Source: Gammaproteobacteria bacterium
Lineage (GTDB): Bacteria; Pseudomonadota; Gammaproteobacteria; Thiomicrospirales; Thiomicrospiraceae
Assembly: GCA_014763665.1 (NCBI GenBank)
Contig: JACXUY010000007.1
Coordinates: 1-49,152 of the forward strand
Reading direction: 5' to 3'
DNA length: 49,152 bases
The position numbers were made by a program, and so were the translations under genes. Shown here in pieces: positions 10,427 through 37,287 of the stretch. The stretch's first letter is position 1; every line of letters begins with the position of its first letter. Under the pieces are notes generated by a model. It did not search any database and was not told the DNA's origin. It worked only from the letters and a program-made list of their open reading frames with translations.

Positions 10427-10445
10427 TGCATCGTAAACATGATTA

Positions 10446-10620
10446 TTGGGTGCGTTTAGCTTAATCGTTAAACGTTAAACGGGAAGTTGGGTGAAATGCC
10501 CACACTGCCCCCGCAACAGTAATTGAGAAGACATTTCGCGTGACAAGGCGTCACAACCACTGGTCAGCAAGCTTACTGGGAAGGTGAAATGAAACTGCTC
10601 TTGAGTCTGGATACCGGCCT
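10446..10620 (+). promoter_or_regulatory. Cobalamin (B12) riboswitch
   Basis: The conserved blocks occur in order: GGTGCG, ACGGGAAGTTGGGTGAAAT, GCCCCCGCAACAGTAA, CCACTGG, CTGGGAAGG (B12 box), and the 3' closing GAGTCTGGATACCGGCC. It sits in the 5' leader of the B12 uptake operon and should lower expression when adenosylcobalamin is plentiful. It rules out translation of the longer in-frame reading from 10589, which would run through it. Confidence 0.95.
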
Positions 10621-10688
10621 AATAACGTCATTTACCGATTGCGGTGGGCAATACGGCAAAGCAGATGCGATGATATCTTTCTGTTTTA

Positions 10689-25719: not shown

Positions 25720-26427
25720 TTATTTTGTCACATTTTTTGCAGCAGTGTAATGCGTTGGATCTGCTACGCCCGCTTGCACAAATCCCTCATGGCGCAAACG
25801 ACAAGCATCACATACACCACACGCCTTTCCCTCCTCATCGGCTTGATAGCAAGATACCGTTTGAGAGAAATCGACACCTAAACGCATTCCAGTTTGAATG
25901 ATTTCAGCTTTCGACATAAACTGCAAAGGCGCATGTATCTTGACGGACTGACCCTCAACACCCGCTTTGGTTGCTAAGTTTGCCATTTTTTCAAATGCCT
26001 CAATAAACTCAGGACGACAGTCAGGATAGCCCGAATAATCCACTGCGTTAACACCAATAAAAATATGTCGCGCTGTTAATACTTCAGCCAAAGCTAAGGA
26101 ATAGGATAAAAAAACCGTATTACGTGCTGGCACATAAGTAAGCGGAATACCCGACGATTCTATTTCTGGCACAGGAATAGAAGCATCCGTTAAGGCAGAA
26201 CCACCCATCTGCGCCAAATCAATTGTTACCACTCGATGTGTCAATGCCCCCAAACGACGTGAGAGACGCTCAGCTGCCAGCAACTCAGCGGCATGTCGTT
26301 GACCATAATTAAAGCTAATGGTATGACACTCATAACCTTGTGCAATTGCCCAAGCGAGCGTAGTGGCTGAATCTAGCCCACCCGATAAAAGTACTACCGC
26401 TAATCGCGGTTCATTATTTAACTGCAT
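25720..26427 (-). CDS. queC: 7-cyano-7-deazaguanine synthase QueC
   Basis: 235 residues from the ATG at 26427, which gives the usual QueC length. A PP-loop ATPase: [17 protein letters not shown] at the N-terminus, SFNYGQRH, and the zinc cysteines in [22 protein letters not shown]. It makes preQ0 for queuosine. The frame stays open to a TTG at 26493 with AGAGG about 10 nt before it, adding 22 residues. Neither start has a perfect site. The upstream leader holds the unusual folded element at 26508-26615. Confidence 0.92.
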
Positions 26428-26507
26428 CGACCAAAACCCAAACGAAGGGGCATCACTAAAAACCTCGCCTTGCTCGATTTTCAGCGTTCCCAAGATTGTT
26501 TTACCTC

Positions 26508-26615
26508 TGGTGGAAGGGATTAAATCAATTGGTTACATGCCTTTTGAGTTCATCCCTTCCCCCACACTTTAGTGCACCGCAAGGTGAAGCCCCCAAACCG
26601 CTAGGGTTTTTAGAG
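26508..26615 (-). repeat. Folded element, copy A (upstream of queC)
   Basis: Homologous to 37099-37207. On the minus strand the order is CCTCT-AAAAA, a G-run, hairpin CACC-TTGC-GGTG (26586-26575), CACTAAAGTGTGGGG, a perfect 9-bp stem GGAAGGGAT/ATCCCTTCC (26560-26552 with 26520-26512), and CCACCA. The loop carries TAACCA and TGATTTAAT. The family is unknown to me. Its stem bases differ from copy B by compensating changes. Confidence 0.65.
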
Positions 26616-26649
26616 GTCACTAAAGGTTAACTTGTTTCAAGTCATGTTA

Positions 26650-37046: not shown

Positions 37047-37098
37047 GAACTTTCCTTATTAATGCCTTAAAATAAAGCTTACATTATACCGAATGAAT

Positions 37099-37207
37099 CT
37101 CTGAAAAATACAAAAGGGATGGGGTGTCACCTTAAGGTGCGCTAAAGTGTAGGGTAAGGACTGCATTTTAGTAACAGCTAACCACGTGATTTAATGTCCT
37201 TCCACCA
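37099..37207 (+). repeat. Folded element, copy B (upstream of dnaQ)
   Basis: Homologous to copy A at 26508-26615. Order: CTCTGAAAAA, GGGG, hairpin CACC-TTAA-GGTG (37128-37139), CGCTAAAGTGTAGGG, stem AAGGAC/GTCCTT (37156-37161 with 37196-37201), and CCACCA. The loop holds TAACCA and TGATTTAAT as in copy A. It points toward dnaQ as copy A points toward queC. Confidence 0.65.
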
Positions 37208-37223
37208 ACCAAAAAATGAGAAT

Positions 37224-37287
37224 GGAAAGTCTGAATGAGAAGCGACGCTTTAGCGCTGCGAAGCAGAAGCCATTATTCAGACCTTCC
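37224..37287 (+). repeat. Long imperfect hairpin just upstream of dnaQ
   Basis: GGAAAGTCTGAAT (37224-37236) and ATTCAGACCTTCC (37275-37287) are inverted repeats with 12 of 13 matches. They enclose a smaller CGC-TTTA-GCG hairpin. No T tract follows; it ends 18 nt before the dnaQ ATG and could mask translation or be the trace of a small mobile repeat. Confidence 0.5.

Follow-up and report, generated by a model that had tools for sequence, protein, structure and literature searches.

A foldable intergenic repeat next to queC and dnaQ: evidence for a non-coding IS5-type MITE family with an optional 23-bp tandem module

A stretch of 49,152 nucleotides of contig JACXUY010000007.1, from a gammaproteobacterium of the Thiomicrospiraceae and hereafter called the window, carries a foldable repeat twice, at 26508-26615 on the minus strand and at 37099-37207 on the plus strand. 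An earlier note, made from the sequence alone, had described it as a 108-bp element which might be a structured RNA leader, a small RNA or a folded mobile repeat, and the question raised by this locus is which of these it is.

Extent and anatomy of the repeat

The places, the strands and the similarity of the two copies were confirmed by blastn within the window (73.6% identity over 87 bp, E 4e-9), and the sequence blocks listed as shared are present in both. The sequence repeat is therefore real but its extent had been underestimated, since the 108 bp are only the inner portion of longer elements, at 26449-26622 and 37094-37287, whose complete lengths are 174 bp (copy 1) and 194 bp (copy 2). 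No open reading frame of 80 aa or more lies inside either window copy, and the element is too short for a transposase gene. When copies are oriented and aligned, terminal inverted repeats (TIRs) are present and the parts follow each other in the order 5' TIR, G-rich arm, optional 23-bp module, core hairpin, A-rich stretch and 3' arm, the last being made up of two TIR-like sequences in inverted orientation. Two groups of copies, A with ends GGGNANCTCTAAAAAC and B with ends GGAAGGTCTGAATAA or GGAATCTCTGAAAA, can be aligned over their whole length and so look like subfamilies rather than recombinants. The features of the two window copies are listed below with the scores of R1, a covariance model built from 31 subfamily-A copies; G000 is the genome of the window (2.17 Mb, 238 contigs), and G001, G002 and G003 are the other three genomes of the genus.

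26449..26622, minus strand: MITE copy 1, subfamily A, complete, 174 bp, with one 23-bp module (R1 120 bits; exact empty site in G001)
26445..26448, no strand: target-site duplication AAGG, left (AAGG on both element flanks, once in the empty G001 site)
26623..26626, no strand: target-site duplication AAGG, right (same AAGG flank comparison with G001)
26605..26622, minus strand: 5' TIR of copy 1, TAGTGACCTCTAAAAACC
26565..26587, minus strand: 23-bp module of copy 1, TCACCTTGCGGTGCACTAAAGTG, single (module scan; other elements have 0-4 in tandem)
26508..26563, minus strand: conserved core hairpin of copy 1, GGGGGAAGGGAT ... GTAACC ... TTGATTTAATCCCTTCCACCA (alignment of 62 copies)
26449..26494, minus strand: 3' arm of copy 1, an internal TIR-like copy plus the 3' TIR, folding as a hairpin
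37094..37287, plus strand: MITE copy 2, subfamily B, 194 bp (R1 49.9 bits; site empty in G002 and G003)
37127..37149, plus strand: 23-bp module of copy 2, TCACCTTAAGGTGCGCTAAAGTG
37150..37207, plus strand: core hairpin of copy 2
37223..37287, plus strand: hairpin of the 3' arm of copy 2, whose loop carries a module-like insert, GCTTTAGCGCTGCGAAGCAG

The left end of copy 2 is decayed, and its target duplication is not recognisable. The module TCACCTTGCGGTGCACTAAAGTG consists of two adjacent palindromes placed between the 5' arm and the core hairpin, and is present 0 to 4 times per element; three or four tandem modules are found in the elements L011, L084 and L085, and the 23-bp unit is missing from most copies. 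Growth to as many as four tandem copies would probably have occurred via replication slippage. A related double palindrome is seen in the loop of many subfamily B 3' arms, and a diverged 23-bp double palindrome (e.g. CTTCTGCTCCGCAGCACTAAAGTG) in the 5' arms of L006, L056 and L039; this diverged form occupies a second position in the element as well, from which it appears that the module may spread within it. The core, on the other side of the module from the 5' arm, is strongly conserved between A and B, and mobility through the ends alone does not explain this conservation.

Dispersal and insertion sites

The earlier note had proposed a covariance search of related genomes, in which many copies at unrelated loci would point to a mobile repeat, and this is the outcome that was obtained. 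With one copy as query, 49 places were found in G000, a number which includes separate pieces of one element. R1 matched at least 49 places in G000, at least 49 in G001, 21 in G002 and 26 in G003, nearly all of them at full length, and a further 17 subfamily-B places in G000 lie outside the R1 list; consequently, G000 holds at least 66 copies at dispersed places, mostly of 146-250 bp, and these copy counts are to be read as lower bounds. The repeat is present in all four genomes of the genus. At the nucleotide level it was not found in other genera among the 39 relatives searched, and in 59 genomes of the family outside the genus R1 gave only a single marginal match (G057, E 6e-4), which was taken as chance. 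The core pattern was found in only two GTDB genomes, the 'Thiomicrospira cyclica' MAG and 'Thiotrichales bacterium 35-46-9', and in none of the IMG/VR sequences.

The flanks of the elements were compared after the element ends had been fixed by sequence. An exact 4-bp flank match was observed in 16 of the 41 subfamily-A copies (with shuffled flanks, 0.8 on average and at most 6 in 5000 trials) and in 9 of the 17 subfamily-B copies (shuffled flanks, 2.2 on average and at most 8), and exact matches of length 2, 3, 5 or 6 are far fewer. The other 25 of the 41 A copies have an imperfect duplication or none, which decay would account for. Most targets of subfamily B conform to YTAR, 12 of 17 right flanks being CTAG, TTAG, CTAA or TTAA; subfamily A has no strict target and does not follow YTAR. 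A TA-dinucleotide target of the IS630 type was also considered and dropped, since a 4-bp duplication fits better.

Comparison with the relatives gave the same picture from the side of the insertion sites. Around queC, the near relative G001 agrees with the window at 98% identity but has no copy 1: where the window reads ACG-AAGG-(element)-AAGG-TTAACTT, G001 reads ACG-AAGG-TTAACTT. Conversely, near queC, G001 has a B copy at a place which is bare in the window. Joined flanks of 18 of the 28 prepared G000 sites were searched against the other three genomes of the genus, and in G001 10 of these 18 sites were contiguous (empty) and 2 were split by about 150 bp (filled), while the site of copy 2, at 37 kb of the window, is contiguous in both G002 and G003. 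Since empty and filled sites occur across relatives, the element is mobile, and recently so, having transposed after these species parted.

RNA readings and the queC insertion

The distance from the end of copy 1 to the likely start of queC, an ATG at 26427 on the minus strand, is 21 bp, and the mechanically longest queC ORF (window 25720-26493) starts inside the MITE. Given this position, an effect of copy 1 on queC is possible. In pneumococcus, boxB modules have been reported to tune neighbouring expression (PMC3049150), and by analogy some copies might have been co-opted as regulatory leaders, with copy 1 in the 5' untranslated region of queC and the number of modules tuning the expression of the neighbour; we regard this as improbable.

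Considerably less probable, to the point of being very unlikely, is a cis-regulatory leader of structured RNA, conserved upstream of particular genes such as queC and dnaQ. The core does fold as a strong hairpin, copy 1 sits 21 bp ahead of queC, and each window copy lies upstream of a gene toward which it points. However, what had been noted for these two does not hold as a general rule, since the neighbours are unrelated and the gene orientation is mixed: among intergenic copies with both neighbours resolved, both genes run with the element in 14 cases and against it in 22, and the genes are convergent in 10 and divergent in 6, these ORF-based counts being approximate. The proposal of a covarying stem was likewise borne out only in part, in that the stem reads GGGAT/ATCCC in one window copy and GGAC/GTCC in the other, but over 60 distinct copies the covariation amounts essentially to one pair. 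In fact, a nine-pair stem is 97% paired over these copies, yet nearly invariant, and one stem pair, changed from G-C to A-U in 8 copies and to U-A in 1, holds 9 of the 10 two-sided changes, its A-U form tracking subfamily B. Covariation across several independent pairs was not seen, and RNAalifold assigns the core a covariation term of -0.1 kcal/mol and the full element one of +0.02. A search of the Rfam covariance models at the gathering threshold and with E up to 10 returned no relevant family for either copy, only evident chance matches, in agreement with the previous statement that no known riboswitch family matches. Elsewhere in the window, at 10431-10636, a Cobalamin riboswitch (RF00174, 86.8 bits) lies at the start of a long ORF. 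Moreover, the queC site is empty in the near relative G001 and insertions are polymorphic between close relatives, and a polymorphic insertion already contradicts the reading as a conserved leader.

A family of free-standing small RNA genes would account for the many copies and for the conserved hairpin core, but the 4-bp target duplications, the TIRs and the empty sites are transposon features, and we give this explanation next to no credence. From the three possibilities first considered, the mobile repeat is retained, on account of its scattered copies, TIRs, 4-bp duplications and empty sites, and the leader and the small RNA are set aside: the repeat is an ordinary kind of element and not a regulatory RNA. 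A foldable intergenic repeat which occurs twice in one window can thus pass for regulatory RNA.

An IS5-family partner and comparison with known systems

A protein search for transposase fragments identified five in G000 and one in G003. Three fragments of PF05598 are found in G000, and transposases of PF01609 and PF13586 are absent in the four genomes of the genus. A transposase fragment scored above the cut-off for DUF772 in Pfam and had its best NCBIfam score with transpos_IS5_4, under the full-length cut-off, as expected of a fragment. The DUF772/IS5-type N-terminal fragments in G000 are preceded by GGGCACCTCTAAAAAC, which fits the end pattern of subfamily A at 16 of 16 positions, the A ends being identical to those of the IS5-family element of the same genome. 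An IS5-family element of full length is present in G076, which belongs to a different genus of the family; its ends, GGGAACCTCGAATAACC, differ by one base from the 5' end GGGAACCTCTAATAACC carried by some MITE copies. The fit of GGGCACCTCTAAAAAC together with the G076 ends supports a putative mobilisation in trans by an IS5-family transposase.

In the genus this IS5-family element is known from truncated or contig-edge copies only, and several contigs break inside the transposase, as is the usual effect of multi-copy elements in draft assemblies; among the fragments and contig-edge copies of the four draft genomes no intact transposase is assembled. At L141:1389-1859 (contig C76 of G000), one of the places with GGGCACCTCTAAAAAC, lies a 470-bp IS5-family element with an internal deletion; it is bounded by inverted repeats on both sides, its transposase start is truncated, and it is possibly an intermediate between an IS and a MITE. 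In another species of the genus, a truncated IS5-family start at L145 (contig C40, G003) has the end GGGCACCTCTAAAAGC. Between the MITE and the IS5 remnant there is no visible match outside the inverted repeat, so that an origin by direct deletion is unsupported. For subfamily B, no IS with matching ends was found in the genus, and the link to IS5 is weaker, being suggested by the YTAR targets and by ends which resemble those of E. coli IS5, GGAAGGTGCGAATAAG. In related genera, PF01609 loci were rejected as partners, as every match to the ends had 3 mismatches, was unpaired or was implausible. A family of REP-type palindromes, mobilised by a Y1 (RAYT) and not by a DDE transposase, would also consist of dispersed intergenic palindromic repeats and agrees with a 3' arm which alone forms a hairpin, but is extremely unlikely, since DDE transposition typically goes with TIRs and direct duplications of 4 bp, and since the ends agree with those of an IS5-family element in G000.

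We therefore consider it very probable that the repeat is a family of non-coding IS5-type MITEs, moved in trans and sometimes carrying the 23-bp tandem module. The elements have no coding content; in the mechanism that we hypothesize, an IS5-family transposase would recognise their terminal inverted repeats and move them in trans, with 4 bp of target duplicated at insertion. The IS5 transposase of G000 is likely to move subfamily A and a related IS5 transposase subfamily B, and the elements themselves would be without host function. With insertions that are recent and polymorphic, one of which lies shortly before queC, the genus can serve for studying how modular MITEs acquire tandem units and whether neighbouring genes are affected.

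No description joining Thiomicrospira with such elements was found among the papers searched, and we regard the family as a new one of an already known kind of MITE. With E. coli IS5, whose target is YTAR (PMC10359306), it shares the 4-bp duplication and, in subfamily B, the YTAR target and ends that resemble GGAAGGTGCGAATAAG; unlike members of the IS5 family, it has no transposase gene, and only the ends are in common. The closest known systems are BrickBuilt and BOX. BOX of Streptococcus pneumoniae, in which tandem boxB modules, variable in number, stand between two end parts, is likewise a composite repeat, dispersed and foldable (PMC3049150), but its sequence is different, and the present family has ends matching those of an IS5-family element as well as an observed 4-bp duplication. 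BrickBuilt is an intergenic MITE of Porphyromonas gingivalis with IS5-like ends and an internal tandem 23-nt unit (a minisatellite) between two flanking parts, one copy having a 4-bp duplication, GAAA, backed by a filled/empty comparison (PMC4596501). It reaches 22.8 repeats and 991 nt in 19 copies, with ends GAGACCTTCGCA (PMC4596501), whereas the present elements, from another phylum, have 0-4 repeats and about 150-250 bp in at least 66 copies, most of them without the 23-bp unit, and are set apart by ends which differ from GAGACCTTCGCA. The common unit length of 23 may be a coincidence. Nevertheless, with IS5-like ends around an optional internal 23-bp tandem module and an intergenic location, the family closely parallels BrickBuilt across unrelated phyla.
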